Shown here one piece after another: positions 17,123 through 52,174 of a stretch of DNA of 64,000 nucleotides. Position 1 is the first letter of the stretch, and every line of letters starts with the position of its first letter. The stretch is from Mycobacterium sp. BK086. GTDB taxonomy: Bacteria; Actinomycetota; Actinomycetes; Mycobacteriales; Mycobacteriaceae. A model generated the notes under the pieces. That model made no database searches. It had not been told where the DNA came from and was given only the letters and a program-made list of their open reading frames with translations. The position numbers and the translations under genes were made by a program. Where the stretch lies: contig SNWL01000003.1 in assembly GCA_004362315.1 (NCBI GenBank), positions 868,001-932,000 on the forward strand. The letters are read 5' to 3'.

Positions 17123-17131
17123 TTCGCCGGG

Positions 17132-17761
17132 TTAGCGGTGTCCGCCGCCTGAATTGAACCCGGGCTGAGCCGCATCACCTTCGGTGATCTGATACGGCGA
17201 GGTGGCCAGGTCGTTCGGCGTGGCCACGATCGACGAGTTGCCTTCCGACGGCGCCGGGCCGCCGGCGGCGGCCTGGTCCGGCACGACCTGGAAGTTCTCG
17301 TCGGAATCCGGCACGACGACCGGCGCCGCGGTGCCGGGATCACCAGGTACCCAGGCCAGGAGGTCGCGGGTGCCGTCGTTGAAGACGACGCTGTTCGGGA
17401 TGGGGCCAACGACGTCGAAGTAGAGCTTTCCGGCGTTCGATGCCCCCCAGATCGAGGGGTAGAAGTCGCCGGACTCCGCCCGGGCACCGAAGCGCTCGAT
17501 GAATATCGGGTAATTGGCACCGAACCCGTCGACCACCAGCTTGGCCGCGTACAACGTGCCGTTGTGTGGCACCGCGTCCGAACTGGGCGCGAGCTTGCCC
17601 ACGGCATAGCCGATATAGGGCAGGCCATTGGGCCCGTTCAACGTTTCCTGCTGGCCGAACACCTTGATGCTGTCCGCTGCCCAGGCCGGCGCGGCGGTGA
17701 CGCCGGCAAGGCCCAACGTGACAACGGTGGCGGCCACTCCGGCCATTTTCGCGAATTTCAC
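17132..17761 (-). CDS. MPT63-like secreted immunoglobulin-fold protein
   Basis: An exported protein of about 209 residues. I chose the GTG at 17761 because GGGGAGAG lies just upstream and it gives a clean signal peptide ending at APAWA-A. The mature domain (about 30-150) shares with MPT63 (DUF1942) the diagnostic segment GKLYFDVVGPIPNSVV followed by a DLLAW motif. This predicts an antiparallel beta sandwich like MPT63, whose function is unknown. A glycine/proline-rich, disordered tail of about 60 residues follows. It converges with the carboxypeptidase at 16250-17122. Confidence 0.78.
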   Translation of the reverse strand: MKFAKMAGVAATVVTLGLAGVTAAPAWAADSIKVFGQQETLNGPNGLPYIGYAVGKLAPSSDAVPHNGTLYAAKLVVDGFGANYPIFIERFGARAESGDFYPSIWGASNAGKLYFDVVGPIPNSVVFNDGTRDLLAWVPGDPGTAAPVVVPDSDENFQVVPDQAAAGGPAPSEGNSSIVATPNDLATSPYQITEGDAAQPGFNSGGGHR

Positions 17762-17962
17762 AGTCTCTCCCCAGCTGATCAGTGCCAACATCCCCGACGC
17801 TTGTTCGGACAACTTTACTGTGACTTACCTAACAAAAACCTGCTTTCAGCGGCATCCCCAAGGACAGCGGCGCCGCGACCTAAACCGGTAGTCGCTGATC
17901 GCAATGCTTTCGAGATTCGATCGCGTCGTTGCCGAGGTGCTGGCCAAATAGCCTCGGCACCC

Positions 17963-18805
17963 ATGCCGGCCCGCCCCTTCATCGCGCTGCTGAGCATTGC
18001 CATGTCCATGGTTCTGGTGGCACCGGCCGCCGCGGCACCCGCGCCCCAGCCGGCCGGAACGGTCGCCGCCCCACCCGACGGCCCCGCCCAGGCCTGGCTG
18101 GTCGCCGACCTCGACACCGGACAGATTCTCGGCGGCCGCGAGCCCTATAGCTCCCACGCACCGGCGAGCACCATCAAGGCTCTGCTCGCGATGGTGGTGC
18201 TCGACCAGTTGGCGCCGGGCACCGCAGTGCGCGCGACCGACGCCAGCACCCAGGTCGAATGTTCTTGTGTCGGTTTGGTTCCGGGCCAGGTCTACACAGC
18301 GCGACAACTCCTCGACGGGCTGCTGCTGGTATCGGGCAACGACGCCGCCAACCTGCTCGCCGACATGCTCGGCGGCTCGCAGGTCGCGGTTCAGAAGATG
18401 AACGCCAAGGCCTACCAGCTCACGGCCCGCAGCACCAGGGCCGGATCCCCCTCCGGCTTGGACGGACCCGGCTGGGAATCTGTCACCACGCCACACGATT
18501 TGGCGGTGATCTACCGAGAAGCGTTGCGCTACCCGCTGTTCGCCCAGATCGTCCACCAGCCCTCCGCGTTGTTCCCCGGCAAGTCGGGGTTCAAGGAGAT
18601 CAAGAACCAGGACCATCTGTTGCGCAGTTACCCCGGCTTCATCGGCGGCAAGAGCGGATACACCGACCTGGCACAGGAAACCTACGTCGGCATGGCGCAG
18701 CGCAACGGGCGACGGTTGATCGTGGTGCAGATGTACGGCAGCGAGGACCTGTGGGACCAGGCGGGGAAATTGCTCGATTGGGGTTTCAGCCACTACAGCC
18801 AGTGA
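17963..18805 (+). CDS. D-alanyl-D-alanine carboxypeptidase paralogue
   Basis: A 280-residue exported protein starting MPARPFIALLS; longer upstream readings lack a signal peptide and run into the MPT63-like promoter. Signal peptide about 1-25, then the motifs SxxK (ASTIKAL), SxN (SGNDAAN) and KSG (GGKSGYTD). The third motif is KSG rather than KTG, a variation common in serine PBPs. It is clearly homologous to the protein at 16250-17122 along its length, pointing to a local duplication. Predicted role is peptidoglycan D,D-carboxypeptidase in the periplasm. Confidence 0.92.
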   Translation: MPARPFIALLSIAMSMVLVAPAAAAPAPQPAGTVAAPPDGPAQAWLVADLDTGQILGGREPYSSHAPASTIKALLAMVVLDQLAPGTAVRATDASTQVECSCVGLVPGQVYTARQLLDGLLLVSGNDAANLLADMLGGSQVAVQKMNAKAYQLTARSTRAGSPSGLDGPGWESVTTPHDLAVIYREALRYPLFAQIVHQPSALFPGKSGFKEIKNQDHLLRSYPGFIGGKSGYTDLAQETYVGMAQRNGRRLIVVQMYGSEDLWDQAGKLLDWGFSHYSQ

Positions 18806-18807
18806 TC

Positions 18808-18868
18808 GTTGAGTCAGAACCGGGAGCGAAGATTTCGTCGAAATCTTCGCTCCCAGTTCTGACTCAAC
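18808..18868. terminator. Near-perfect 61-bp palindrome between convergent genes
   Basis: The 30-base arms at 18808-18837 and 18839-18868 are inverted complements with one mismatch, around a single central base at 18838 (arm ends GTTGAGTCAG and CTGACTCAAC). The element fills the gap between two convergent stop codons (18805 and 18870). It would form a very stable hairpin in either transcript, so a bidirectional terminator is the simplest reading. There is no T tract. Its length is beyond what termination needs, so a dispersed repeat unit is also possible. Confidence 0.7.
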
Positions 18869-18869
18869 G

Positions 18870-19940
18870 CTAGTAGACCCGCCCGCGCAGGATCACCACG
18901 TCCGGGTTCGACAGCACGTCGGCGCCCCCACGCGGATCTTCGGTGAAGCACACCAGATCCGCCGGGGCGCCGTCGTCGATGACCGGCCGCCCCAGCCACC
19001 GTCGGGCGTCCCAGCACGCCGCACCGAGCGCGTCGGTCGGGGTCATCCCGATCCGCGTGAGGGCATCGACCTCGTCGGCGATGCGCCCGTGTGCGATCGT
19101 GCTGCCCGCGTCGCTGCCGGCATAGATCGGCACGCCGGCCTCGCGGGCCGCGCCCATCCGCGCATAGCAGCTGTCGTAGAGAGCGCGCATGTGAGCGGCG
19201 TAAGTCGGGTATTTCGTTGCGGCGTCGGCGAATCCGGGAAAGTTCTCGATGTTGATCAGGGTGGGCACCAGGGCGGTGCCGTGCTCGACCATCATCGCGA
19301 TGGTGTCGTCGGTCAGGCCCGTGCCGTGCTCGATGCAGTCGATGCCCGCTCCGATCAGGCCGGGCAGCGCGTCCTCACTGAACACGTGCGCGGTGACCCG
19401 AGCGCCCTCGTCGTGCACGGCCGCGATCGCGGCGCGCAGGACATCATCGGACCACAGCGGTGCCAGGTCGCCCACCGACCGATCGATCCAATCGCCCACG
19501 AGTTTGACCCAGCCGTCGCCGATCCGGGCCTGCTGCGCCAGCGCCTCGGGCAGCTGCCACTCGTCTTCGAGTTCAATGGCGAAACCGTGCGAGTAGCGCT
19601 TGGGGCGCGCCAAATGCTTTCCGGCCCTGATGATCCGGGGCAGATCGTGGTGATCGTCGAGGCTGCGGGTGTCGGTCGGCGAGCCGCAGTCGCGCAGCAG
19701 CAGGGCGCCGACCCCGCGCTCCACCTCGGCTTGGGCGATGGCGTCGTCGAGCGGGATCTCGCCGTGGTCCCCCAACCCGACGTGACAGTGCGCGTCGACC
19801 AGGCCGGGCAGGATCCAGCCGCCGTCGAACACCGTCTCGGCGTCGGCGACCGGTTCGGCGCGCAGAATTCCATCGACGATCCACCACTCGACGAGCTCGC
19901 CGTCGGGCAGTCCACGGCCCCGAACGTGGAGGGCCCGCAC
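18870..19940 (-). CDS. Amidohydrolase family metal-dependent hydrolase
   Basis: A 356-residue amidohydrolase with an imidazolonepropionase/prolidase-like layout: N-terminal small beta domain, the metal-binding HxH in LVDAHCHVGLG, a candidate lysine in DGWVKLVGDW, histidines in RVTAHVFSE and CIEHGTGL, and the catalytic aspartate in YAGSDAGST. It probably hydrolyses an amide or ring C-N bond in the cytoplasm using a metal; the substrate is unknown. It matches the position of Rv2915c, directly before ffh, from which it is separated by a single base. Confidence 0.88.
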   Translation of the reverse strand: MRALHVRGRGLPDGELVEWWIVDGILRAEPVADAETVFDGGWILPGLVDAHCHVGLGDHGEIPLDDAIAQAEVERGVGALLLRDCGSPTDTRSLDDHHDLPRIIRAGKHLARPKRYSHGFAIELEDEWQLPEALAQQARIGDGWVKLVGDWIDRSVGDLAPLWSDDVLRAAIAAVHDEGARVTAHVFSEDALPGLIGAGIDCIEHGTGLTDDTIAMMVEHGTALVPTLINIENFPGFADAATKYPTYAAHMRALYDSCYARMGAAREAGVPIYAGSDAGSTIAHGRIADEVDALTRIGMTPTDALGAACWDARRWLGRPVIDDGAPADLVCFTEDPRGGADVLSNPDVVILRGRVY

Positions 19941-38626: not shown

Positions 38627-39106
38627 TCAGCGTTCGGCGAGCTTGGCCTGCAGGCGGCGATTGACCGCCTCCGGCAGCAGCGCCGAGACGTCGCCACCGA
38701 AGGTCGCCACCTCTTTGGCCAGCGACGACGAGACGAATGAATACTGCGGCGTGGTGGCCACGAAGAATGTGTCCACCCCCGCGATGTGCTTGTTCATCTG
38801 GGCCATCTGCAGCTCGTATTCGAAATCGGTGCCGGTGCGCAGACCCTTGACGATCGCGGTGAACCCGCGCTCCTTGACGAAGTCGACGACCAGCCCCGTC
38901 CCCGCCTCGGCACGCAGGTTGGGCAGATGGGCGGTGGCTTCGGAGATCATCGCGATGCGCTCGTCGATATCGAACATCCCCGACTTCTTGGGGTTGATGA
39001 GCACCGCGACGATCACTTCGTCGAATTGCGCTGCGGCGCGCTCGAAAATATCGACATGGCCCAGCGTCACTGGATCGAACGATCCCGGACACACCGCGCC
39101 ACTCAT
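38627..39106 (-). CDS. coaD: Phosphopantetheine adenylyltransferase
   Basis: A 159-residue CoaD. Nucleotidyltransferase motif [17 protein letters not shown] with the conserved T/HxGH-type site, [19 protein letters not shown], and [16 protein letters not shown] near the C-terminus. It makes dephospho-CoA from phosphopantetheine and ATP. In M. tuberculosis the next gene is rsmD; here the Ter island starts divergently 110 bases away. Confidence 0.97.
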
Positions 39107-39216
39107 GACCGAAGACGCTAGCAGGCCACCGTCCAGACCATCCCCCAGGAAGCCGAAACCCGCTGCGTTCGGCCCGATTCGGTTAGTCTGTCGCTGACCT
39201 ACGGAAGGCGGGTTCG

Positions 39217-39840
39217 ATGGCCCAGTTGTTCCAGGCGTCGGGCAAAATCATTGAAGCGCGGTTGGAGAACACCGCGATCAAGGCACTCAGCGGCTCGATG
39301 GTCGCCTACGAGGGCAACGTGTCGTTCAAGACCGCCGGTTTCGGCGGCGGAGCGGGCCTGGTGGCCGGCATCAAGCAACGGGCCACCGGAGAATCCCTGT
39401 CGCTGATGGAATGTCAGGGCCACGGCCGGGTCTTCCTGGCCGTCAACGCCCAGCACGTCGCCGTCATCGACCTGAACAACGAACAACTGCGCGTCGAGTC
39501 CCGCCAGCTGCTGGCACTGGCCGGCAACCTGCAGACCAACGTCACCTTCGCGGGGCTGCGCGGCGCATCGTCAGGACAGGGCCTGTTCACCACGGTGGTG
39601 TCCGGCGTCGGGCAGGTGGCCCTGTTGTCGGCCGGTGGTCCGCTGATCCATCTCGAGGTGTCCCCGCAGTACCCGCTGGTCGTCGATCCCGACGCGTTCG
39701 TCTGCGCCAAGGGCAATCTGCAGCAGTCCTTCATCACCGACGTGTCCTGGCGCACCGTGGTGGGCCAAGGATCCGGCGAGGCGTTCTCATTGCGTTGGGA
39801 CGGAAGCGGTTTGGTGTCCATTCAGCCGGCGGAACGGTAA
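39217..39840 (+). CDS. AIM24-family protein 1
   Basis: A 207-residue AIM24-family (TIGR00266-like) beta-helix protein. Repeated strands end in family-type segments such as [33 protein letters not shown]-like ribosome-binding stretch precedes the ATG. Bacterial AIM24 proteins are trimeric beta-prism proteins of unclear biochemical role and often sit near Ter stress genes. First of three tandem paralogues; divergent from coaD. Confidence 0.85.
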
Positions 39841-39844
39841 GCCG

Positions 39845-40543
39845 ATGGTCTTCACGAAGGTCAACTCGAAAGTCGTCAAAGTCGACGTGGCCGCGGCCGG
39901 CGGTGTCGTCGCCCGCACCGGCGCCATGCTGCTCTACACCGGAGACGTCGCTTTCAGTCCGCATCAGGTTCCCGGTGCCGCGCAGATGGGCGGCATGGGC
40001 GGTCTGATGCGGATCGCGGGGCGGATGATGCAGGGTGAGCACGAACGCACCATGCTCGCCCAGGGCTACGGCGAGGTCCACTACGGCTACGCCGGCCTGG
40101 ATCTGCACATCGTCGAGATTCAGCCCGGCGCGGTCCTGACCGTGGAAGCCTCACGGCTGCTTGCCAATACGGCCGGCCTACAGAGCGCGATCGTCTCGGT
40201 CGCCGGCGGTTCGGGTGGCGGCGGTGGCGGCATGATGGGCATGCTGCGCGGCGCCGCGACCGGGGCGCTCACAGGTCAGGGCATGTTCACCACCCAGCTG
40301 TCCGGGCACGGTGCGGCGGTGCTGCTCGCCCACGGCGGCGTACTCGAATTGCAGGTGGGCGGCCCCGCTCCGGTGGTGGTGGACCCGCAAGCCTTCGTCG
40401 GCGCCTACGGCAATGTCACCACCGAGCTCAAGACCGCGATGAGCTGGCGCGACGCGGTCGGTCGCGGATCCGGCGAGGCCATGCAGCTGAACTGCCAGGG
40501 CCAGGGCACCGTCTTTGTTCAGGCATCGGAGGAAAAGCTGTGA
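39845..40543 (+). CDS. AIM24-family protein 2
   Basis: A 232-residue AIM24 paralogue, four bases after the first. A glycine-rich insertion (VAGGSGGGGGGMMGML) interrupts the mid-region, and the C-terminus reads GRGSGEAMQLNCQGQGTVFVQASEEK, typical of the family. Overlaps the next gene's start as GTGA, so the three are translationally coupled. May form heteromers with its neighbours. Confidence 0.85.
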   Translation: MVFTKVNSKVVKVDVAAAGGVVARTGAMLLYTGDVAFSPHQVPGAAQMGGMGGLMRIAGRMMQGEHERTMLAQGYGEVHYGYAGLDLHIVEIQPGAVLTVEASRLLANTAGLQSAIVSVAGGSGGGGGGMMGMLRGAATGALTGQGMFTTQLSGHGAAVLLAHGGVLELQVGGPAPVVVDPQAFVGAYGNVTTELKTAMSWRDAVGRGSGEAMQLNCQGQGTVFVQASEEKL

Positions 40544-41301
40544 CGCAGATGGTCAATCCGTCGAACCTGCCGCCGGACGACAACGTCCCCGGCAACAACT
40601 ATGCCTTCAACATCAACCTGACCGCGCCGTGGTTCATGCGCAAGGGCGCCATGATCGCCTACTACGGGCAGATCGAATTCCGGGCGCTCACCACCGGCCT
40701 GCACGCGGGCCTACTGCATATGGTGTCGCAAAATTTCTCCGCCCCACTGTATTTGGGCGACTACGTGGTGGCAGAAGGCCAGGGCAATCTGATCATCGGC
40801 GACCGCGGCTACGACATCAATTCCTATGATCTCGACGACGGCAACCTGACCATTCGAGCCGCCAATCTGCTGGCGTTCCAACCCGGTCTCGCGATGAACC
40901 AGTCGATCGTGCCGGGGTTCGTCACCCTCATCGGCACCGGAAAATTCCTGGCCTCATCCAACGGTCCGGTGCTGTTCGTCGAACCGCCGGCGCGGGTGGA
41001 CCCCGAAGCGCTGGTCGGCTGGGCCGATTGCCCGGCGCCCAGTCATCATTTCGATCAGCGCTGGATCAGTGGGTTCGTCTCGGCAGGCGCCGCCCGCATG
41101 GGCATCAACACCGGCGAGGAGCGCCAGTTCGATTTCACCGGCGCGGGAACGATTCTCGTGCAATCCAGCGAGAAGGTGATCAGCGACTCGGCGATCGTGC
41201 GCTCCATCGAATCCCAGCTGCACGGCCTGACCTTCACCGGCCTGCAGCACCTGGGCTCGGTGATCAATTCACAGATGGCCGCACAGCAGCAACAGCGCTG
41301 A
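40540..41301 (+). CDS. AIM24-family protein 3
   Basis: A 253-residue AIM24 paralogue starting at GTG. It retains the family C-terminal strand (GTILVQSSEKV) and then adds a helical tail of about 40 residues. It converges with the TerC-like gene; stops are three bases apart. Compared with its siblings the N-terminus carries an extra proline/asparagine-rich segment (NPSNLPPDDNVPGNNY). Confidence 0.85.
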   Translation: MTQMVNPSNLPPDDNVPGNNYAFNINLTAPWFMRKGAMIAYYGQIEFRALTTGLHAGLLHMVSQNFSAPLYLGDYVVAEGQGNLIIGDRGYDINSYDLDDGNLTIRAANLLAFQPGLAMNQSIVPGFVTLIGTGKFLASSNGPVLFVEPPARVDPEALVGWADCPAPSHHFDQRWISGFVSAGAARMGINTGEERQFDFTGAGTILVQSSEKVISDSAIVRSIESQLHGLTFTGLQHLGSVINSQMAAQQQQR

Positions 41302-41304
41302 CGC

Positions 41305-42411
41305 TCAGCCCGCCAGGGCTGACGTCTTGTCCTCCTGGGCCGCACGGCGATTGCGCATGACGCTGGAGATGAAGGCCGCGGCGATCAGGACCACGCCGAT
41401 CAAGCCGGTGACGATTTCGTTGACATGGACGCCAAGCGAGATGAGCAGGATGAACGCCAGCGCGCCGATCGCCCAGTGCGCCCCGTGCTCGAGGTACACG
41501 TAATCCGACAGGGTGCCTTTGCGGACCAGGAAGATCGTGATCGACCGCACGAACATCGCCCCGATGAAGCCCAGGCCCAGCGCAATGATGATCGGGTCGC
41601 TGGTGATGGCGAACGCACCGATCACCCCGTCGAACGAGAACGACGCATCCAGTACCTCGAGGTACAGGAACAGGAAAAAGCTTGCCTTGCCGGTGGTTAC
41701 GGCCAGCGCCGAGGGGCCATTCGAGGTGCCCTCCCCCGCTTCCTCGTCGTCGTCGATCTCGAACATCGAGCCCAGTCCGTCGACCAGGATGTAGGTCCCG
41801 ATGCCCAGAACTCCCGCCAGCAAGACCGTCGGCCGATGCTCGTCGGGAGCGAGGAATTCCGCGGAGATCACCAGCAGGCCAAGCGCCACCACGACCGCCA
41901 GCTGGTCGAGCTTGCCTGCCTTGCCCAGTGGGCGCTCCAACCAACTGAGCCAGGTGATTTCGCGTTCGCTGAAGATGAAATTCAGGAACAGCATCATCAG
42001 GAACATGCCACCGAACGAGGCGATCTGCGGATGCGCGGCGGTCAGCGCGGTCTCGTAACTCGGCGATCCGTCCGCGAAGTACGGCGCGCCGCCGGCCGGC
42101 GGGTTCAGCGCGATGTCAAGGGCGCGGACCGGATCCAGGCCGGCGGTGATCCACACGACGGCGAGCGGGAACACCAGCCGCATGCCGAACACCGCGATCA
42201 GGATGCCCACGGTCAGGAACATCTTCTGCCAGAACTCGCTCATCCGGCGCAGCACCGTGGCATTGATCACCGCGTTGTCGAACGACAACGAGACCTCGAA
42301 AATGCCCAGCACCGCCGCCAGGATGAGGGCCTGCGGCCCGCCGTAGAGGAACGCGACAACCAGCGCTACCGCGGAGACGAGAAACGAGATTCCGAAGACG
42401 CGTAAGACCAT
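41305..42411 (-). CDS. TerC-like integral membrane protein (DUF475)
   Basis: A 368-residue polytopic membrane protein of the TerC/DUF475 group. Helices bear the acidic intramembrane motif EVSLSFDNAVINATVL and, in the second half, EVLDASFSFDGVIGAF, which are thought to bind divalent metals. An acidic cytoplasmic loop (about 220-240, FEIDDDEEAGEG) lies between the halves. TerC proteins are proposed to sense or export metal ions, including manganese, at the membrane. It follows terD by 78 bases on the same strand. Confidence 0.88.
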   Translation of the reverse strand: MVLRVFGISFLVSAVALVVAFLYGGPQALILAAVLGIFEVSLSFDNAVINATVLRRMSEFWQKMFLTVGILIAVFGMRLVFPLAVVWITAGLDPVRALDIALNPPAGGAPYFADGSPSYETALTAAHPQIASFGGMFLMMLFLNFIFSEREITWLSWLERPLGKAGKLDQLAVVVALGLLVISAEFLAPDEHRPTVLLAGVLGIGTYILVDGLGSMFEIDDDEEAGEGTSNGPSALAVTTGKASFFLFLYLEVLDASFSFDGVIGAFAITSDPIIIALGLGFIGAMFVRSITIFLVRKGTLSDYVYLEHGAHWAIGALAFILLISLGVHVNEIVTGLIGVVLIAAAFISSVMRNRRAAQEDKTSALAG

Positions 42412-42489
42412 GGCGATCCCCTTGACAAGTGTGGAAATTGGCGACGGCCACCGGCGCGGATCGCGCCGGTGGACGTCGGTGGGTCGGTG

Positions 42490-43065
42490 TTAGACGTTCA
42501 CTCCGTAGTCACGCGCGATGCCGGCCAGACCCGAGGCATAGCCCTGACCGATCGCGCGGAACTTCCATTCCTCGCCGTTGCGGTAGAGCTCACCGAACAC
42601 CATCGCGGTCTCGGTGGAGGCATCCTCGGACAGGTCGTAGCGCGCCAGCTCCTTGCCGTTGGATCGGTCGACCACCCGGATGAAGGCGTTCTGGACCTGC
42701 CCGAAGCTCTGCGAGCGCGAGTCGGCGTCGTAGATCGACACCGGGAAGAAGATGTTGGTGATGCTCGGCGGCGTCGCGGCGAGGTCGACGGTGATGACCT
42801 CGTCGTCGCCTTCACCCTCACCGGTGAGGTTGTCGCCCTTGTGCTCGATCGAGCCTTCCGGGGACTTCAGATTGTTGAAGAAGACGAAATGCTTGTCGCT
42901 GAGCACCTTCTTGTCGGCGCCCGTGGCGATGGCGCTGGCATCGAGGTCGAAGTCGGTTCCCGTCGTCGTCCGGATATCCCAACCCAGGCCAACGGCCACC
43001 GCGGTGAGGTTCGGTGCCTCCTTGGTCAGCGAAACATTTCCACCCTTGGTCAGACTGACACCCAT
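42490..43065 (-). CDS. terD: TerD calcium-binding stress protein
   Basis: A 191-residue canonical TerD protein starting [18 protein letters not shown]. Calcium-binding acidic positions are in DFDLDASAI and the [12 protein letters not shown] loop, followed by [21 protein letters not shown]. TerD proteins are cytosolic or membrane-associated calcium-binding factors of tellurite/oxidative stress response. Upstream of the TerC-like gene, presumably co-transcribed; divergent from the helical protein at 43235. Confidence 0.95.
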
Positions 43066-43234
43066 GCGATGCTGCCTTCCTTTAACTGTGAGAAAACTGT
43101 GTGGAACCAACAGGCAAATGTCTGTGGTGCTGCGCGCCGGCGCGGTCGGCGCCGCGCCCCCCACCGTAGTGGATGCGCGGATGGGTGAAATTGTTTCAGC
43201 TAATCGCCGTCGCCTCCACCATTAGGATCGAACC

Positions 43235-44428
43235 GTGCCCAGTCGCTGGCTGAGGTTGTCTCGCAGCCCGCGCGAGGACAACGACACCCAGATACCCGCT
43301 GAACTCACCAGCGCGTTCCTTGATATGGAACGCCGCCTGGGTATCGCGGAGCAGGCCGTCGAGATCGCCACCGCCCTGCAGCATCACGCATCGCTTACAG
43401 CTGAATGGGCCACCGCCCGTGACCGGGCCTACGCCGCCACCGCCCAGTACCTGGCGGTCGCGGCGCCGGATTCCACGAACGCGGGCCCCCGGGCGCCGCT
43501 GGCCGAGGTCGCGCGCAGCATCGACACCGCGATGGCCGGGCTCGACGATTTCTACCACCGGCACCGGCGCACCCTCGACGGCGCTACCGGGGCGGCGGTG
43601 TCCGCCAGGACCCAGGCCGACCAGGCGCTCGCCGCTGCGATCCCCGCGCTGCAACGGCTGGCGGCGCTGGACCCCGAATTCGCCGACTATCCGTCCGTCC
43701 GGGCCGCCAGGGAGTTGGTCGAATCCACCCGCACCGAGACCCAGGCCGTCGTGCACCGCGGCGACATCGCAGCCACCGGTACGTCCGCGCAACGGCTGCA
43801 GCGCGCCATCGCGGCCCTCGACCAGGCCGTCGCCGCCGCCCCCGGCCTCAACGAACGCACAACTCGCACAATGGCTTCCGTGCGCACCCGGCTCGATGCC
43901 ATCACAAACCGCGCGGGCACCATCGATACCGCGTATTCGGCGTTGCTCAGAGAATTCAACGTCGCATCGTCTGAAGACCTGGACGACAACAAAGAACTCG
44001 CCCAGACTCACCTCGACGTCGCACGGACCTGTATCGACCGCGCCGCACGGGAACTCGGCGCACACCACCCTGAGCAGGCCGCGGCCCTGGCGGCGCAGGC
44101 CAGAGAAGAGCTGGCGCGCGCCGAGGGACTCGTCGACGCGGTCACCGACCGGCTCGGCATCCTGCGTGCCCTGCGCGCCGACCCCAGTCAACCGGAGCGG
44201 GACATCCGATTCCGGATCCGCGACGCGCAGCGCTTGGCCGTCGACCGCAACGCGACAGCCGAATGGGGCACGGCGCTCGACGCCCAGGTGCCCCGCGTCG
44301 ACCGGATCGTCGAGGCCCTGCGCGGTCCCCACCCCGACTATTGGCGATACCACGTCGCCCTGGACGAGGTCTCGCAGTTCGTCGCCAACATCGTCAACCG
44401 CATCCGACAACAATCGGCGACACGATGA
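43235..44428 (+). CDS. Helical protein of unknown function in Ter island
   Basis: A 397-residue, Ala/Arg/Glu-rich, predicted all-helical protein starting at GTG. No transmembrane segment, no signal peptide and no nucleotide-binding motif. Several segments look like coiled coil (about 20-75, 170-215 and 250-300). I do not recognise a family, and it does not look like TelA. It is first in a chain of five genes with four-base overlaps (44425, 45618, 46856, 47965), so its product is likely needed in stoichiometric amounts with the enzymes that follow. Confidence 0.8.
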   Translation: MPSRWLRLSRSPREDNDTQIPAELTSAFLDMERRLGIAEQAVEIATALQHHASLTAEWATARDRAYAATAQYLAVAAPDSTNAGPRAPLAEVARSIDTAMAGLDDFYHRHRRTLDGATGAAVSARTQADQALAAAIPALQRLAALDPEFADYPSVRAARELVESTRTETQAVVHRGDIAATGTSAQRLQRAIAALDQAVAAAPGLNERTTRTMASVRTRLDAITNRAGTIDTAYSALLREFNVASSEDLDDNKELAQTHLDVARTCIDRAARELGAHHPEQAAALAAQAREELARAEGLVDAVTDRLGILRALRADPSQPERDIRFRIRDAQRLAVDRNATAEWGTALDAQVPRVDRIVEALRGPHPDYWRYHVALDEVSQFVANIVNRIRQQSATR

Positions 44429-45621
44429 CCGCAGCCCGAGCCGTCCACGGACGAGCAGCCTTTCAGCACTTCCACCACCTGGGGCCGGACGAACGGGACC
44501 GGCTCTTCTATCTCGCTCCAGAGGAACTCTCCGCCGACGCCGACCGCGACCTGCTCGCGACCGCACTGGGCGCCACGCTGTACATGCCTGCCGATCGCGC
44601 CGACCTTCCCGCCACGGTCATTCGCCGCTCCGCCGAGGGCATCTGCTCGATGGTGCTCGACCTGGAGGACGCCGTCGAGGAGCGTGGTGTCGCGGCCGCC
44701 CTGGACAACGCCGTGGCCGCACTCGACGCGCTGGCCGAGCTACCCGGTCCGCTGCGGGCGATGATCTTCGTCCGCGTCCGAAGCCAGCGCTGCATCGAGA
44801 GGATCACCGCCAACCTGGGCCGCGGAGCCGAGGTGTTGCTCGGCTTTGTCATTCCCAAATTCGAGGCTGCCACCGGCGAGACCTACCTGGCCCAGACCGC
44901 GGCCGCCGCGGACACCCTGGGCCGGCGGCTGTATTGCATGCCGGTGCTGGAATCCGCCCGCGTCATCTACCGGGAAACCCGGGCCGCGGAGCTCGAGGCC
45001 GTATCTGAACTGCTTGGCAAACACCGGGATTCGGTGCTCGCCGTGCGGGTCGGCGCCACCGATCTGTGCGGGAAGTTCGGCATCCGCCGCGACCGCGACC
45101 ACACCATCTATGACGTGCACGTGGTGGCCTCTGCCATCGCCGACATCGTCAACTACCTCGGACGTACCGACGGCACCGGCTTCGCGGTCACCGGTCCGGT
45201 CTGGGAGTATTTCGCCGACCACGAGCGGTTGTTCCGGAGCATGCTGCGTACCACTCCGTTCGCCGAGCACGACGCGGTGCGCTTCCGCGACAAGCTTGTC
45301 AGCCGCGATCTCGACGGGTTGCTGCGCGAAATCAGCCTGGACCGCGCCAACGGCATGATCGGCAAGACTGTCATCCACCCGTATCACGCGCCGGTGGTGC
45401 ACGCCCTGTCGGTGGTGACCCACGAGGAGTACCGCGACGCCACCGACATCCTCGCCGCCGAAGCCGGCGGAGTGCGCCGTTCGGAATACCGCAACAAGAT
45501 GAACGAGGCTCGCCCACACAGGATTTGGGCGACACACGTGCTGCGCCGCGCCCAGGTGTTCGGTGTCGCCAACCAAGGCGTCACGTTCGTCGACTTCCTC
45601 ACGCGTCTGGCGGCCAAGTGA
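44425..45621 (+). CDS. HpcH/CitE-like lyase of Ter module
   Basis: A 398-residue TIM-barrel protein of the HpcH/HpaI aldolase-citrate lyase beta group. It starts at the ATG overlapping the previous stop. Barrel landmarks are SMVLDLEDAVEE (metal-binding acidic residues), RAMIFVRVRS (substrate arginine), GFVIPKFEAATGE, and the C-terminal MIGKTVIHPYH. It probably makes or breaks a carbon-carbon bond next to a carboxylate or CoA thioester; the substrate is unknown. Such lyases recur in Ter operons with phosphoribosyltransferases and a HAD phosphatase. Confidence 0.85.
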   Translation: MTAARAVHGRAAFQHFHHLGPDERDRLFYLAPEELSADADRDLLATALGATLYMPADRADLPATVIRRSAEGICSMVLDLEDAVEERGVAAALDNAVAALDALAELPGPLRAMIFVRVRSQRCIERITANLGRGAEVLLGFVIPKFEAATGETYLAQTAAAADTLGRRLYCMPVLESARVIYRETRAAELEAVSELLGKHRDSVLAVRVGATDLCGKFGIRRDRDHTIYDVHVVASAIADIVNYLGRTDGTGFAVTGPVWEYFADHERLFRSMLRTTPFAEHDAVRFRDKLVSRDLDGLLREISLDRANGMIGKTVIHPYHAPVVHALSVVTHEEYRDATDILAAEAGGVRRSEYRNKMNEARPHRIWATHVLRRAQVFGVANQGVTFVDFLTRLAAK

Positions 45622-46859
45622 ACGCGACGACGCCGTGGGCGACCGAGCGATTCGGGTTGCGGCTCCAGGACGACGCCGGCGGCACGCACCGGTTGTCGGG
45701 GCTGGTGCTGCCGGGGTTGCGGCGCAACCCACGCCGCGCTCACCTGCTCGTGTCGACCGTGCTGGGCAAGCACATCGCGGTGTCGCCGACGACCGTGCGC
45801 GACGCCGCCGACAGGCTCGGCGATACCGTCGCCGCACTCGGCGCCAGCGAGGCCGATGTGCTCGGCATGGCCGAAACCGCCACCGGGTTGGGCCACTGCG
45901 TCGCCGACCGGCTCGACGCTGCGGTCTACCTGCACAGCACCCGGCGCCAGGCCCCCGCCCGCCAGATCTATGCCGAATTCCAGGAAGGGCACTCGCACGC
46001 TACCGATCACCTGCTGCAGCCCGCCGGGCCCGCGGTGTTCACCCAGTATCGCCCCCTGGCGATCGTCGACGACGAAATATCCACCGGAACAACCGCTTTG
46101 GCGACGATCGAAGCCCTGCACCGGCAACACCCCCGACCCCGGTACATCGTTGCCTCGCTGGTCGACGTCCGCACGGCCGCGCACAGGGCGCTGGCCGACC
46201 AAAAAGCCCAGACCCTCGGGGCGGCCATCGACTTCGTCAGCCTCGCCAGCGGCCAAGTCAGCATCCCCGATGCCCTGACCGCACAGGTGTGCGCCCTACC
46301 CGCACCTCGGCTCAACCCCACCCACCACGACGTTCCCGGCAGCTGCCGGACGGTGACGCTGCCCTGGCCGGCAGATGTCCCCGACGGCGGCAGGCACGGC
46401 TTCCTGCGCAGCGACGCTCCGGCGTTCGGCGCCGCCGTCGCGGAGGCAGCCACTGAGCTCAGCGCGGTGCTCGACCCGGGCCGGCCGCTGCTGGTGGTGG
46501 GCCATGAGGAACTCATGTATCTGCCGCTGCGGATCGCCGAGTTGCTGGCCGCCCGTGGCTTTGCCACCCGCTTTCAGTCCACCACCCGATCCCCGGCCTA
46601 TGTCGTCGACGGCCCCGGCTATCCGCTGCGCACCGGATTCGAGTTTCCCCCAGGCGAATCCGGCGAGACCGGACACCGCTATCTCTACAACGGGTGGCCG
46701 GGTGCGCGCGCCCAGCTGGTGGTCGTGATGGACGAGATCGCGTTACCCGGCGCCGGGGAACTCTCCGCTGTGCTGACCGCGGCCGGGTACGACGTCGTCC
46801 TTGCCGTGGTCGCCGGACCCGGTTTCGATGCACTGACCAGCGCACGGGCGGCGACATGA
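45618..46859 (+). CDS. Phosphoribosyltransferase with TRSP domain (Ter type)
   Basis: A 413-residue protein, GTG start overlapping the lyase stop. The N-terminal half (about 40-225) is a phosphoribosyltransferase fold with the PRPP-binding motif AIVDDEISTGTTAL. The C-terminal part (about 255-410) resembles the TRSP domain found on Ter-associated transferases (STTRSPAYVVDGPGYP region). It likely attaches a ribose-phosphate to an unknown base. Pairs with the second transferase-like gene that overlaps its end. Confidence 0.82.
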   Translation: MNATTPWATERFGLRLQDDAGGTHRLSGLVLPGLRRNPRRAHLLVSTVLGKHIAVSPTTVRDAADRLGDTVAALGASEADVLGMAETATGLGHCVADRLDAAVYLHSTRRQAPARQIYAEFQEGHSHATDHLLQPAGPAVFTQYRPLAIVDDEISTGTTALATIEALHRQHPRPRYIVASLVDVRTAAHRALADQKAQTLGAAIDFVSLASGQVSIPDALTAQVCALPAPRLNPTHHDVPGSCRTVTLPWPADVPDGGRHGFLRSDAPAFGAAVAEAATELSAVLDPGRPLLVVGHEELMYLPLRIAELLAARGFATRFQSTTRSPAYVVDGPGYPLRTGFEFPPGESGETGHRYLYNGWPGARAQLVVVMDEIALPGAGELSAVLTAAGYDVVLAVVAGPGFDALTSARAAT

Positions 46860-47968
46860 AGACCCCGCTGGCCGGACCGGATTTCGGCAGTTACGCCCCC
46901 GACGAGGTCAGCTGGCTGCTCACCGACCTGTCGGACATGCCACTGGAGGCCGACACCGCCCGTCGGGAGCGTGAAATCCAGTCCGGGCGTGCCCATTACG
47001 CGGAATCGCTGCCCATCGAGTATCAGCCCAATCCCGAATATCGCGCCTTGTTCACCGAGGTACTCACCGAAACGGCAGCCCGGCTGGCCACCGCCGTCGG
47101 CGTCGTCACCGAACTGGTTCTCGCCGAGCGCGGTCACGACATCTGCCTGGTCTCGCTGGCCCGCGCCGGCACCCCGATCGGCATCCTGATGCGCCGCTGG
47201 GCTGCCCGGCATCACGGACTGCGGCTACCGCACTATGCCGTGTCGATCGTGCGGGACCGCGGGATCGACACCGCCGCACTGCATTACCTCAGCACGCACC
47301 ACGACCCGGCCTCTGTCGTGTTCGTCGACGGCTGGACCGGTAAGGGCGCGATCACTCGGGAGCTGACCGCGGCCCTGGCGGCGCACGCCGCCGAGACCGG
47401 CGTCCACTTCAACCCCGACCTGGCGGTCTTGGCCGATCCCGGTGACTGTGTGCGCACCTACGGCACCCGCGACGACTTCCTCATCGCGTCCGCGTGCCTC
47501 AATTCGACGGTGTCCGGACTGATCTCCCGCACCGTGCTCAACCGTCGATTGATCAGCGTCGACGATTTCCACGGCGCCAAGTTCTATCGCGAACTGGCCG
47601 CCGATGACCGCTCCGGCACCTTCCTGGACGCCGTGAGCGCGTGCTTCGACGAGGTGTTTACCTGCGCGACAAAGCAGAGTGCCGAGCTGATGTCGGCCGA
47701 TCGCACCCCCGGTTGGGCGGGGATGGCCACCGTCGAACAGATCCGCCGCGACTATGGCATCACCACAACCAATTTCGTCAAACCCGGGATCGGCGAAACC
47801 ACCCGGGTGCTGCTGCGCCGGTTACCCCGACACATCATCGTGCGGGATCCCGACGCCCCCGAGCACCGGCACATCAGGCTCTTGGCCGCCGAACGTGGTG
47901 TGCCCGTCTCGTGCAAGCCCGACCTCGCCTACGCGTGCGTGGGCCTGATCGATGACGTGATCCAGTGA
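46856..47968 (+). CDS. PRTase-like/StiP-type protein with C-terminal PELOTA-like domain
   Basis: A 370-residue protein, ATG start overlapping the preceding gene. The body resembles the Ter-associated StiP/PRTase_1 group: SLARAGTPIGILMRR, FVDGWTGKGAITREL and HFNPDLAVLADPG. The last about 60 residues (GETTRVLLRRLPRHIIVRDP onward) look like the PELOTA-type RNA-binding domain often fused to it. Annotated in databases as cysteine protease StiP, but the fold argues for a phosphoribosyltransferase-like enzyme. Acts presumably with its two neighbours. Confidence 0.8.
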   Translation: MKTPLAGPDFGSYAPDEVSWLLTDLSDMPLEADTARREREIQSGRAHYAESLPIEYQPNPEYRALFTEVLTETAARLATAVGVVTELVLAERGHDICLVSLARAGTPIGILMRRWAARHHGLRLPHYAVSIVRDRGIDTAALHYLSTHHDPASVVFVDGWTGKGAITRELTAALAAHAAETGVHFNPDLAVLADPGDCVRTYGTRDDFLIASACLNSTVSGLISRTVLNRRLISVDDFHGAKFYRELAADDRSGTFLDAVSACFDEVFTCATKQSAELMSADRTPGWAGMATVEQIRRDYGITTTNFVKPGIGETTRVLLRRLPRHIIVRDPDAPEHRHIRLLAAERGVPVSCKPDLAYACVGLIDDVIQ

Positions 47969-48789
47969 CCGCGCTCATCGCCAGCGACCTGGATCGCACG
48001 CTGATCTACTCCCGCCGGTTCTTCGAGGTCGCGCCACCGGTGGAGCACTGCGTCGAGATCTACCGCGACGAGCCCATCTCCTTCATGACTCCGGCTTCGG
48101 CAGAACTGTTGTGGCAGTTGACTACCCAACACCTGGTTGTGCCCGTCACGACCCGCACCGTCGCGCAGTACTCCCGGATCACCCTGCCCGGCGGCCCGTT
48201 CCGCTACGCGATCACCAGCAATGGCGGCACCATCCTGCTCGACGGTGTTCCCGATCTCCTGTGGGCAGACACCATGGCCACCCGCATTCGCGCCAGCGGA
48301 CCTCCGCTGGCCGAGGTCATAGCGCAGCTGCAGAACCGCATCGACGACAGCTGGGTCGACAATCTGCGCACTGCCGAAGACCTGTTCTGCTACCTCGTCG
48401 CGGACGAAGCCGCGCTTCCCGCCGACTTCGTGACCGAGTGGCAGACGTGGTGCGCACCGCGCGGCTGGAAGGTGTCCCAACAGGGCCGCAAGATCTACAC
48501 GGTGCCGGAGCCCCTGTGTAAATCCCAGGCGGTGGCCGAATTGCATCGCCGCCTCATCGAATCCGGCCAGCTGCCCGAGCACGCGCCGATCGTGGCCGCC
48601 GGCGACGGCGCGCTGGATGCCAAACTGCTCGAGCTGGCAGACGCGGCGATCCGCCCCGCCCACGGCGAATTGCACAGCCTGGACTGGCAATGCGCCGATC
48701 TGCACGTGACCACCGGCAGCGGAGCCATCGCCGCAGAGGAGATCCTCACCTGGTTCAGTCAGCAGGTAACCACCGATATGCACCATTAA
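47965..48789 (+). CDS. HAD-superfamily phosphatase of Ter module
   Basis: A 274-residue Cof-type HAD hydrolase, GTG start overlapping the preceding stop. Motif I is SDLDRTLIY (Asp nucleophile and acid), motif III a lysine around CKSQAV, motif IV AAGDGALD. A cap domain lies between. It likely removes phosphate from the product of the transferases upstream, completing a nucleoside-like compound. Followed after 39 bases by the double-TerD gene. Confidence 0.85.
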   Translation: MTALIASDLDRTLIYSRRFFEVAPPVEHCVEIYRDEPISFMTPASAELLWQLTTQHLVVPVTTRTVAQYSRITLPGGPFRYAITSNGGTILLDGVPDLLWADTMATRIRASGPPLAEVIAQLQNRIDDSWVDNLRTAEDLFCYLVADEAALPADFVTEWQTWCAPRGWKVSQQGRKIYTVPEPLCKSQAVAELHRRLIESGQLPEHAPIVAAGDGALDAKLLELADAAIRPAHGELHSLDWQCADLHVTTGSGAIAAEEILTWFSQQVTTDMHH

Positions 48790-48828
48790 CCACCCTGTGC
48801 GCCTAGAAGATTCGAGGAAGGACATCCG

Positions 48829-50121
48829 TTGACGACACCATTGAGCAAAGGCCAGAACGGACCGCTCAATTCTGCCGAGCTGGTGATCTCTGTTGAGCTT
48901 GCGGCACCGGCAGATCTGTCGGCGCTGTTGGTGACCGAGGCCGGAAAGGTCCGCAGCGACGCCGATTTCGTTTTCTTCAACCAGCCCACCGGACCCGGTG
49001 TGCGGCTGCAGCCCGGTCCTCCCGGCCAGCCGGCCAGCCTGGGCGTCAGCCTGGCCGCGGTGCCGGCCGACATCGCGCGGGTGCGCGCCGTCATCACCCT
49101 CGACGATGCCGGCTCCACCTTCGGCCAATCTGCCCCGCCGGTCGCCCGGATCAGTGACACCGCCGGAAATGTGCTGTACGAGTACCGCATCGAGGGGTTG
49201 TCCAGCGAATCGATCGTGATCGCCGCCGAGGTCTACCGCCGCCAGGACACCTGGAAGGTGCGCGCGGTCGGCCAGGGGTACGCCGGCGGATTCGCCGCAC
49301 TGGTCACCGACCACGGGGTGAGTGTGGACGATGCACCCGCCGCCGCCCAGGCCGCGCCACCACCACCGCCACCGCCACCGCCACCTGCGGCCTATCCGCC
49401 CCCGGCACCGCCGGCACCACCGGCGTACCCGCCCCCAGCACCGTCGGCGTACCCGCCCCCTGCCGCACCGGCGTATCCCCCGCCGGCCGCACCGCCACCA
49501 CCGCCGCCACCGGCGGGAGACGGCGAAGTCAGCCTCGTGAAGGGCCGGACCGTCAACCTGACCAAGGGCCAACGGGTTTCGCTACGCAAGGACGGCGGAG
49601 TGGCCCTCACCCAGATCCGGATGGGCCTGGGCTGGGACCCCATCAAGCAGCGCGGCATGTTCGGCAACCGCACGCCCGACATCGACCTGGACGCCTCGGC
49701 GATTCTCTTCGCCGACCAGCAGGTCGCCGACGTCTGCTACTACGGCCAGCTCGCCTCCAAGGACGGGTCCATCAGGCACCAGGGTGACAACCTCACCGGT
49801 GAGGGTGAGGGCGACGACGAGGTCATCAACGTCGACCTCACCCGGGTCCCCGCCTACGTCACCACGGTGATCTTCACCGTGACCTCCTATCGCGGGCACA
49901 CCTTCGACATGCTCTCCAACGCGTTCTGCCGGCTCGTGGACGCGACCACCAACGCGGAACTGGCTCGCTACACCCTGCAGGGGGCCGGAATGCGCTACAC
50001 CGGCATGGTGATGGCCAAGTTCTTCCGGGTCGGCCAGGAGTGGAAGATGCAGGCCATCGGCGAGGGCATCACCGCCAAGCACGCCGGCGAAGCGATCCCC
50101 CAGATCACCCGGTTCCTCTGA
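48829..50121 (+). CDS. Double-TerD fusion protein with proline-rich linker
   Basis: A 430-residue protein from a TTG start placed eight bases after GAGGAAGG. First TerD-like domain about 1-165 (degenerate: lacks the acidic [12 protein letters not shown] loop), then a low-complexity linker of about 55 residues rich in PPP, AYPPP and APP repeats, then a full TerD domain (about 230-430) with DIDLDASAI, the [12 protein letters not shown] loop and [14 protein letters not shown]. The linker could bind SH3-like or membrane partners. Probably a scaffold coupling calcium sensing to the enzymes upstream. Confidence 0.9.
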
Positions 50122-50125
50122 TCCC

Positions 50126-51637
50126 ATGGCACAGCTCAGCGCCGGCCAGAACAGCGAATTAGGCTCCCCCGAGCTGACATTCACCGTCCAACCGGCGCGT
50201 GCGTCGGTTGCGGCGCTGGTCCTCACCGACCAGCGCCGCGCCGTGCCGGACGGGTACCTCGACGACACCGGATCGTCACGACACCCCGGCGTCGACGTCC
50301 AGCCCGACCGGGTGCTCATCGACCTCGGTGCGATGGCTCCCGAGATCGGGTACGTCCTCTGCGCGGCGCTCGACCCCCAACCCGGCGCCGATGCGCTGTC
50401 CTTCACCCTGACCGACGGGCGCGGCCAATCCACCGAATTCACCATTGCCGCCGCCGAGGTGCACCCCGTGATCATCGGCTTCGAGCTCTACCGCCGGGGA
50501 ACGGGGTGGAAGGTGCGGGCGGTCGGGCAGGGGTATGCCGGCGGCGCAGCCGAAATGGCTCGGGCTCATGGCATTACGGCCACCGCGACACCCGTGCCCG
50601 CGCCGCCGGCAGCCGCTGCCCCGATCACCCCACTGGGCGATCAGAATCCACTGGAACGCATCTCGATGATCTACGAGGACGCAGCCCGCAGTTCTGGCGC
50701 GCTGCTGACCGCGCGCACCTTCGCCGCCGACCGGCTCGAGACAGAGATGTCCAACGCCGTCGCGGATCCCGCCACCCGCAACACCGCCGCCGGCCAGGAC
50801 GCGATGACGCAAGCCCAGCGCCGTCATGACGATCTGATCGCTGCCGCCGCAGCCGACTACCAGCGCGACGCGGCCCACCTGGCAGCCGAACTCGAGGCCC
50901 TCGACGGCGAACTGCCCGCCGCACTGGCCTCCTGGGCGTCCCCTGTCTGGCAGCGCCCGCCCCAGCCGAGCACCGGTATCCGGCTGGGTGTGCTCACCAT
51001 GCCCGACGTGGGGACATTGACGATCCCCATGTGCCTGCAGGCCCCCATGCGCCGGCCGGTATGGATCGACACTCGCGAGCCCGCGGCCGCCGCCCCGGTC
51101 CTCGCCTCGCTGCTCACCAGGCTGCTGGCCGCGGCGCCGCACGACAACACCGCGATCGACATCATCGACCTCGCCGACACGCTCGGCCCGCTCACCGAAC
51201 ACCTGCGGGCCTATCTGCCCCGCCCGGCCGTGACCGATCACACCGATGCGGCAGAACGCCTGCAGCACTTGGTCACCCGCGCCGAGCTGGCATCCCTGCC
51301 GGACAGCGACGACGCGTCGGCAAGCATCGTGGTGATCACCGACCCAGGTTACGGCTTCAGTCCCGACGCCATCGGCGCCACCGTCGCGCTGATCAACAGC
51401 AGCGTGGACGCGGGTATCTCGGTGGTCTTCGTCGGCGATCACGCCGACGCCGCCACGTCCACATCCGTTCCGCTGCTGCGCGAGATCGCGGAATTCAGTC
51501 ACCACATCCGCGTCGACAGCGACGACTCCGGGATGCTCGACCCGTGGACCCATAACGCCTGGCGGTTCATCCCCGACACCCTGGCGCCGGGCCCACAGCT
51601 GGCCGACGTGATCGGTCTGCTGTCAGCAGGTCGCTAG
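50126..51637 (+). CDS. TerD-like N-terminal multidomain protein, C-terminal function unknown
   Basis: A 503-residue protein four bases after the double-TerD gene. Residues about 1-155 form a TerD-like domain with degenerate calcium sites ([20 protein letters not shown] retained). About 170-270 is helical with a coiled-coil tendency. About 285-500 is alpha/beta, beginning [19 protein letters not shown]; the pattern recalls the beta-rich entrance to FtsK/EssC ATPase modules but no Walker A P-loop is present. Its 3' end overlaps rsmD by 15 bases on the other strand, so it marks the right boundary of the Ter island. Confidence 0.75.
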
Positions 51638-52174
51638 CTCGACACGGGTGTCTCCGTAGCGGCGGTCCGGCCATGCCGTCCATCCCGCAGGCCAGCCGAT
51701 TTCAGCAGCCGACACCGGGCGTTCGACCACGACGATACTGTCCGCACCCAGCCATCCGTTGCGTACCAAGCTGTCCAGCATCACCTCGATATCGGCGGTC
51801 GACACCTCGTAGGGCGGGTCGGCCAGCACCAGGTCGACCGGCTTGTCCGACCCCGCCGCGAGCACCGCGGCCACCGCACCCCGCCGCACCGTCGCACCCT
51901 GCAGCCCGAGGGCCTCGATGTTGCGTTTGATGACCGCTGCTGCGCGCGAATCACTTTCGACGAACAGCGCAGAAGCCGCACCCCGTGAGAGCGCTTCGAG
52001 TCCGAGCGCTCCAGATCCGGCGTAGAGATCAAGGACCCGCAGTCCGTCGAAATCCCGGCGCGCGGCAAGAACATTGAACAGCGCCTCGCGGACGCGGTCC
52101 GTGGTCGGGCGGGTCCCGCGGGCCGGTACGTCGATGCGGCGGCCGCCGGCACTGCCCCCGACGATGCGGGTCAG
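51623..52174 (-). CDS. rsmD: 16S rRNA (guanine966-N2)-methyltransferase RsmD, CTG start
   Basis: A 183-residue RsmD. SAM-binding motif [19 protein letters not shown] and catalytic DPPYE are present. The only start consistent with the conserved N-terminus ([13 protein letters not shown]) is CTG at 52174-52172, overlapping the pca stop as CTGA, with GGAGG six bases upstream. No ATG, GTG or TTG starts the conserved region. It modifies G966 in the 30S head. Convergent with the last Ter gene. Confidence 0.9.

Follow-up and report, generated by a model that had tools for sequence, protein, structure and literature searches.

The locus described here raises two questions: how did a block of twelve Ter-associated genes come to lie between coaD and rsmD, and what might the enzymes encoded in this block do together? 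The stretch analysed, referred to below as the window, comprises 64,000 nt of Mycobacterium sp. BK086 (contig SNWL01000003.1, positions 868,001 to 932,000), and the block (the island) occupies window positions 39217-51637. The island is the Mycobacteriales version of a type of Ter stress cassette that has already been described. In our assessment it is probable that a mobile cassette of 13 genes was inserted a single time at the rsmD stop codon, in the ancestor shared by the three species that carry it at this site, and that its enzymes act together. The gene set was already known and is widespread; the new details are (i) the insertion site, (ii) the single-event pattern with empty-site relatives, (iii) the synteny with a plasmid of Mycolicibacterium alvei, and (iv) one gene apparently lost from the window lineage. 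No earlier report of this coaD-rsmD insertion was seen in the open-licence literature.

The coaD-rsmD insertion site

The island is flanked in the window by coaD (38627-39106, minus strand; PF01467, E 8e-27) and rsmD (51623 to about 52174, minus strand; PF03602, E 6e-50), each of which was matched in all 151 family genomes. The distance between the two genes was compared in 149 of these genomes, in all of which both lay on one contig and strand: it was below 1 kb in 143 (<500 nt in 142, 500-1000 nt in one; median 34 nt) and above 1000 nt in six, namely the window (12,519 nt), G037 (6,023 nt), G007 (4,711 nt), G042 (1,798 nt), G090 (1,215 nt) and G038 (1,213 nt). The proposal of the earlier note that the island was inserted into an otherwise conserved coaD-rsmD pair is supported by these distances, from which the position of the cassette is also judged not to be ancestral.

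Within the genus a relative of the island's CitE-like lyase (E 1e-25 or better) was found in 8 of 297 genomes, which are the cassette carriers. Three of the eight have the cassette between coaD and rsmD, i.e., the window genome, M. rhodesiae JS60 (G430) and M. vinylchloridicum (G189), in the last of which the island adjoins rsmD and coaD on two separate contigs. The other five carriers all have rsmD adjacent to coaD and the cassette elsewhere, and for the four of them that were compared with the window the homology ends at the block and the flanking genes differ. The cassette also lies away from coaD and rsmD in Mycolicibacterium sp. 018/SC-01/001 (L047), a genus member outside the 297-genome sample. 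Among the rsmD loci of the genus, the best 30 comprised the 3 island carriers, 26 loci with coaD 14-196 nt behind rsmD, and one locus at a contig end. In a tree of the pyc-rsmD region, a single region sampled in the three carriers plus 20 of the 26 loci with an empty site, the carriers formed one clade (support 97/91). Because the three carriers of this site form one clade, one insertion is the simplest reading.

In the near relatives with an empty site rsmD ends in ...GGCGGCCTGC-TAG or similar, and coaD is located within tens of bases after it. The sequence GCGGCCTGCT stands at both ends of the insert in M. rhodesiae JS60, forming a 10-bp direct repeat, and also at both ends in M. vinylchloridicum (rsmD side in locus L023, coaD side in L170). 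The corresponding copies in the window are GTGGCCTGCT on the coaD side (39120-39129, minus strand; intact as GCGGCCTGCT in loci L024 and L170) and GCGACCTGCT on the rsmD side (51625-51634, minus strand; intact as GCGGCCTGCT in L023 and L024). In a random control a shared word of at least 10 nt occurred in 0.55% of 19,968 random pairs of 50-mers from the window. The 10-bp repeat may be a target duplication. The rsmD frame is kept in the window and ends in TGA, and the last codons and the stop codon of the final island gene are antisense on the rsmD 3' end.

Some further observations were made at the flanking genes. The rsmD homology starts at about 52174 at a CTG (52172-52174) that shares bases with the stop codon of the pyruvate carboxylase gene upstream, and no ordinary start codon was seen at this position. 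M. rhodesiae JS60 has a second coaD-like gene (L176, G430:C30:422360-422830; 78% identity to that of the window) away from the rsmD locus. A reading of the rsmD-coaD site as a hot spot with common cargo was rejected, since the three gaps that were opened among the other five above 1 kb (G007, G037, and G042) hold unrelated genes (metal-hydrolase-like, Fer2, HMA, DUF6670). Two of these genomes are from another genus (G007, locus L177; G037, locus L178) and carry 4.7-6 kb of metal-hydrolase-like and ferredoxin-type genes between rsmD and coaD, with the HMA gene in L177.

Genes of the island

The coaD-rsmD interval contains twelve open reading frames (ORFs), each open and with no internal stop. 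The first lies 110 nt from coaD (coaD ATG at 39106, island start at 39217), with the divergent intergenic region (39107-39216) between them, and the last ends at 51637 and thus overlaps rsmD, which ends at 51623, by 15 nt; ORF coordinates and Pfam matches here agree with the earlier note, which had given twelve genes, a gap of 110 bases and a 15-base 3' overlap. The gene order is three AIM24 genes, a TerC/DUF475 gene, terD, a gene for a helical protein, the quartet citE-prt-stip-had, and two genes for TerD-type proteins, with terC and terD on the minus strand, opposite to the remaining island genes. Overlaps of 4 nt at helix-citE, citE-prt, prt-stip, and stip-had show the pattern of translationally coupled operons. 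No convincing shared regulatory element was detected in the interval from terD to the helical gene or ahead of the AIM24 genes. The island has a GC content of 0.674, against 0.661 for the remainder of the window, and no tRNA genes were found in the window.

The three AIM24 proteins are encoded on the plus strand at 39217-39840 (a), 39845-40543 (b), and 40540-41301 (c), with PF01987 matches of E 2.6e-33, 9e-26, and 2.6e-11, respectively. These are followed on the minus strand by the TerC family/DUF475 integral membrane protein (41305-42411; PF04332, E 2.5e-131; PF03741, E 3e-14) and by a TerD protein with full acidic motifs (42490-43065; PF02342, E 1e-83), the start of which was set at the conserved MGVSLTKGG, although the longest ORF reaches 43164. 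All four TerD matches of the genome are inside the island. The tandem TerD protein (48829-50121, plus strand; PF02342, E 4e-81) has kept the acidic motif in its second domain only. The last ORF (50126-51637, plus strand) has no acidic motif and combines a TerD half-domain (partial match, E 1.5e-6) with a conserved C-terminal region, its profile matching the TerD structures 2kxt and 3ibz over approximately the first 150 residues only. The labels proposed earlier for the AIM24 proteins, TerC, TerD, and the CitE-like lyase hold, but the last protein, previously called TerD-like, is a TerD half-domain only plus this C-terminal region. A degenerate FtsK/EccC ATPase was rejected as an identity for the latter region: the Walker A pattern was found in 0 of 22 orthologous rows (one cut short), hhalign gave 0.2%, and with a shallow profile, which leaves some chance of a distant relation, there was no similarity to nine of 11 FtsK-domain stretches of the same genome.

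Relatives have an additional gene between aim24c and terC, which encodes 206 amino acids in locus L024 (L024:13255-13875) and 219 in L027, the two relatives read, and which was present in every other mycobacterial cassette locus searched (L023-L029, L043-L047, L164, L165). It is missing at 41301-41305 of the window, where its site would be 41302-41304, and a search of the window's own genome, run without a positive control, gave 0 matches. The L024 protein had no Pfam match and the Mycobacteroides abscessus version had a weak TerD match (E 0.015); based on this weak match and the annotation "Tellurium resistance" the gene was labeled TerA-like. From this comparison the window lineage appears to have lost the TerA-like gene as a 13th gene of the relatives' block.

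The helical protein (43235-44428, plus strand) is encoded directly before citE in most loci and had no significant match in Pfam or NCBIfam. Members of its family were detected in 35 of the 397 genomes searched within the order; 19 of the 35 were part of the lyase survey, and all 19 have the full-length lyase. Five plasmid records carry the family, all from Mycobacteriales genera, but tblastn also matched two Geodermatophilaceae loci, so that the family reaches somewhat beyond this order. A diverged TelA was rejected as an identity (hhalign probability 0.2% to TelA of pFI430; no Pfam match), and weak similarities to talin, ESAT-6, and a designed helix bundle (best E 0.03) were put down to helix noise.

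The enzyme quartet follows on the plus strand. It consists of a CitE-like C-C bond lyase (44425-45621; PF15617, C-C_Bond_Lyase, E 9e-118; start placed by the 4-nt overlap), a PRTase_2 plus TRSP phosphoribosyltransferase (45618-46859; PF15609/PF12500, E 8e-62 and 2e-29; GTG start with a 4-nt overlap), a StiP plus PELOTA_1 protein (46856-47968; PF11202/PF15608, E 7e-105 and 3e-32), and a HAD-IIB-like (MPGP/trehalose-phosphatase-like) phosphatase (47965-48789), which was assigned by structure matches and motifs. For the motif counts six duplicate loci were left out. The PRTase_2 protein has the phosphoribosyl pyrophosphate (PRPP) loop DDEISTGTT in the window, a DDEISTGxT-type loop was present in 84 of 84 phosphoribosyltransferases (PRTases) with a long match, and its profile matches PyrR-type structures (E 5e-4); from these motifs and profiles it is clearly a phosphoribosyltransferase. 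This secures one of the two PRTase-like proteins that had been proposed from the sequence, the other being a Pfam StiP protein, which is at most a candidate PRTase. The HAD protein gave weak family hits (Pfam HAD, E 0.11; NCBIfam HAD-IIB/MPGP, E 4e-7, under the model cut-off) and matches trehalose-phosphatase structures (E 8e-11), with motif I in 85 of 88 and motif IV in 88 of 88 sequences; the earlier assignment as a HAD phosphatase is borne out by these structure matches and motifs. The DLED motif of CitE, a hand-written pattern found in 67 of 91, was not used as evidence. No ATP-grasp match was obtained among the 12 island proteins and none is annotated in the stretches L164, L165, L167, and L168, and ATP-grasp was therefore not taken as defining for this branch.

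Origin and predicted function

The account that we consider probable would begin with a mobile 13-gene Ter cassette, of a type that occurs in Mycobacteriales both on plasmids and scattered over the chromosome. It would have inserted once at the rsmD stop codon, before the window species, M. rhodesiae JS60 and M. vinylchloridicum diverged from one another. The insertion would have split the rsmD-coaD pair, with both reading frames left intact and a 10-bp direct repeat left behind, and the window lineage would subsequently have lost one TerA-like gene. Judging from their families, the membrane-bound and metal-linked TerC, TerD, which binds calcium, and AIM24 may form a membrane-side stress and metal complex. 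The CitE-like lyase would make or trim a carbon skeleton, PRTase_2 would couple it to ribose-5-phosphate from PRPP, the HAD enzyme would take off the phosphate, and StiP-PELOTA might perform a further, possibly RNA-linked, step, so that the end product of these translationally coupled enzymes would be nucleoside-like. Environmental species, in which the quartet is compact and has no ATP-grasp, may offer a more convenient setting for a search for the metabolite. The gene content matches the Ter-linked set that was credited in the earlier note to Anantharaman, Iyer and Aravind, as described in papers that cite it. AIM24 is a frequent neighbor of TerD (PMC5822837, citing Anantharaman et al., 2012), metals are handled by TerC proteins (PMC12096827), and the Ter biosynthetic cluster is predicted to yield a nucleoside-like compound (PMC8115787).

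Several points weigh against this account. The two repeat copies of the window agree at 8 of 10 positions, i.e., the repeat is decayed, and the longest word common to the two window junctions is a different 7-mer. The coaD-side copy overlaps what we take to be a coaD promoter element, and the repeat could therefore have been kept by selection on this putative promoter. No integrase, recombinase or transposase was found in the insert by Pfam searches of the 12 island proteins, in agreement with the earlier note on the integrase, so that the insert offers no mechanism for its own insertion. In StiP the closest plasmid copy reaches 78% identity, and hence no direct donor was found. The metabolite is a prediction only. 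Finally, the Klebsiella terZ-F genes alone sufficed for tellurite resistance of E. coli (PMC8115787); the enzymes therefore need not serve the tellurite phenotype and may serve another stress.

There is a considerable, if minority, chance that the enzymes release no free nucleoside and are instead involved in base repair or base modification of RNA or DNA, or in protein tagging, with StiP perhaps a protease, in line with its Pfam name. This would suit the PELOTA RNA-binding domain on StiP, the Cys214 and His239 residues that are invariant in 28 StiP sequences, and a StiP profile that matched no PRTase in the PDB and gave no hhalign alignment with PRTase_2. It is countered by the StiP motifs RxGTP and DGWTGKG, which are kept in 88 of 88 sequences (RAGTP and DGWTGKGA in the window) and presumably resemble a PRPP site, and by a phage StiP homologue that is annotated as a phosphoribosyl transferase. 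We regard as somewhat unlikely a further reading in which the island would be a self-contained, plasmid-mobile Ter variant of Mycobacteriales without ATP-grasp, in which a mainly order-specific helical protein is translationally coupled to the quartet and, together with AIM24, TerC and TerD at the membrane, senses envelope or metal stress and triggers the synthesis of a new nucleoside, and in which StiP acts on RNA as a second PRTase.

With respect to origin, the distribution of the cassette has to be considered. A full-length lyase (match E 1.6e-60 or better) was present in 76 of the 151 sampled family genomes (hand count), and some match to the lyase model in 141 of 151, most of the weak ones looking like other CitE-type enzymes; carriage of the cassette is not peculiar to the window genome. 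With 76 carriers among 151 genomes the cassette is thus common in the family, whereas in the genus, with 8 among 297, it is rare. The possibility raised in the earlier note that the same genes are ancestral in related genera consequently fails for the position, with 143 of 149 gaps below 1 kb, but partly succeeds for the gene set. A total of 98 cassette loci were surveyed, some of them from the same genome twice, among which citE was found in 98, prt in 97, stip in 96, and had in 95, with the misses at contig ends; the core order citE-prt-stip-had was kept in 95 of 98, again with the three misses at contig ends. The helical protein was found in 76 of these loci, AIM24a in 41, and the last gene in 24. 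Relatives of StiP were present in 2,567 of 72,556 plasmid records, 1,683 of which were typed as conjugative; of 50,697 phage records, 3 had such a relative, and two of the 3 represent one and the same phage. The phage relatives, in KU935715.1 (Acinetobacter phage, 235 kb) and MT836648.1 (unclassified phage record), have 28% and 41% identity, respectively. The carrier G167 and M. alvei plasmid pJCM12272 were identical in all 19 one-kb probes compared. The genes travelling together would, from these comparisons, number 13, including the three AIM24 genes and the gene of the helical protein. The island had been taken as probably an old accessory block; it is indeed a chromosomal block without an integrase, but it need not be just that, as a syntenic block occurs on mycobacterial plasmids.

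It is unlikely that the cassette was already elsewhere in the ancestor's chromosome and was moved by an intragenomic rearrangement, rather than arriving from a plasmid or another cell. Such a move would fit the lack of an integrase and a quick citE+prt+stip tree, with several long branches flagged, in which the nine mycobacterial rows formed one clade (SH-aLRT, the Shimodaira-Hasegawa-like approximate likelihood ratio test, 100), so that a mycobacterial source is enough; this tree was built from the window and 89 of the 98 loci after nine duplicate, short or odd loci were dropped. The eight genus carriers, however, have the cassette at differing sites, one of them on a plasmid, and because of these few carriers, differing sites, and the plasmid, transfer fits better than vertical descent with loss. 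More improbable again is a role of the cassette as an anti-phage or anti-bacteriocin system: Ter has been linked to phage and colicin resistance (PMC8115787) and the pGD25-3 cassette lies near an abortive-infection gene, but PADLOC models matched 0 of 10 island proteins (all but AIM24 b and c). That the island stood between rsmD and coaD from the start and has since disappeared from almost every other mycobacterium is very hard to credit, since, common as the cassette is in the family, the remaining 75 family carriers all have an rsmD-coaD gap below 2 kb (compared by hand), coaD or rsmD lay in the stretch for only M. rhodesiae JS60 and M. vinylchloridicum out of the 98 loci, and the direct repeat is found at the insert ends in two relatives.

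Comparison with known Ter systems

The enterobacterial terZABCDEF system shares TerC- and TerD-family proteins with the window and is accompanied by a divergent biosynthetic operon (PMC8115787). It differs in that the proteins of the window block include no TerB match and that the membrane protein of the window is of the DUF475 branch. The proteobacterial Ter region of Polaromonas plasmid pPNAP04 (NC_008760.1) has PRTase, HAD, StiP, CitE, TerD, and DUF475 in common with the window, but its order is ATP-grasp-prt-had-stip-citE with TerY-C/VWA, kinase, and PP2C genes nearby, whereas the window block is without an ATP-grasp match. Lactococcus plasmid pFI430 (NC_025249.1) has citE-prt-stip, a protein annotated as hypothetical in the had position, three TerD genes, and DUF475 and, like the window block, has no ATP-grasp annotated in the stretch; in contrast to the window it carries YceG and TelA after the quartet and has no annotated helical protein or AIM24.

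Among mycobacterial plasmids, the 23.6-kb pGD25-3 of Mycobacteroides abscessus (NZ_CP063323.1) carries nine of the 13 genes with their order unchanged, namely TerA-like, DUF475, TerD, helical protein, citE, prt, stip, had, and TerD. It lacks the AIM24 trio, the last gene is matched in its TerD part only, and TerB, an additional TerD, a mobF relaxase, a recombinase, and an abortive-infection gene are its own extras. The abortive-infection gene, the recombinase, and a DUF1524 gene lie beside the Ter cassette at 16612-19375 of this plasmid (L164). The 304-kb plasmid pJCM12272 of M. alvei (NZ_AP022566.1) carries all twelve window genes plus the TerA-like one, the window copy differing in being chromosomal and without the latter gene. 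The proteins of pJCM12272 are 47-92% identical to those of the window, its TerA-like gene is 72% identical to that of L024, and the order and strands of the genes are identical in the two blocks.

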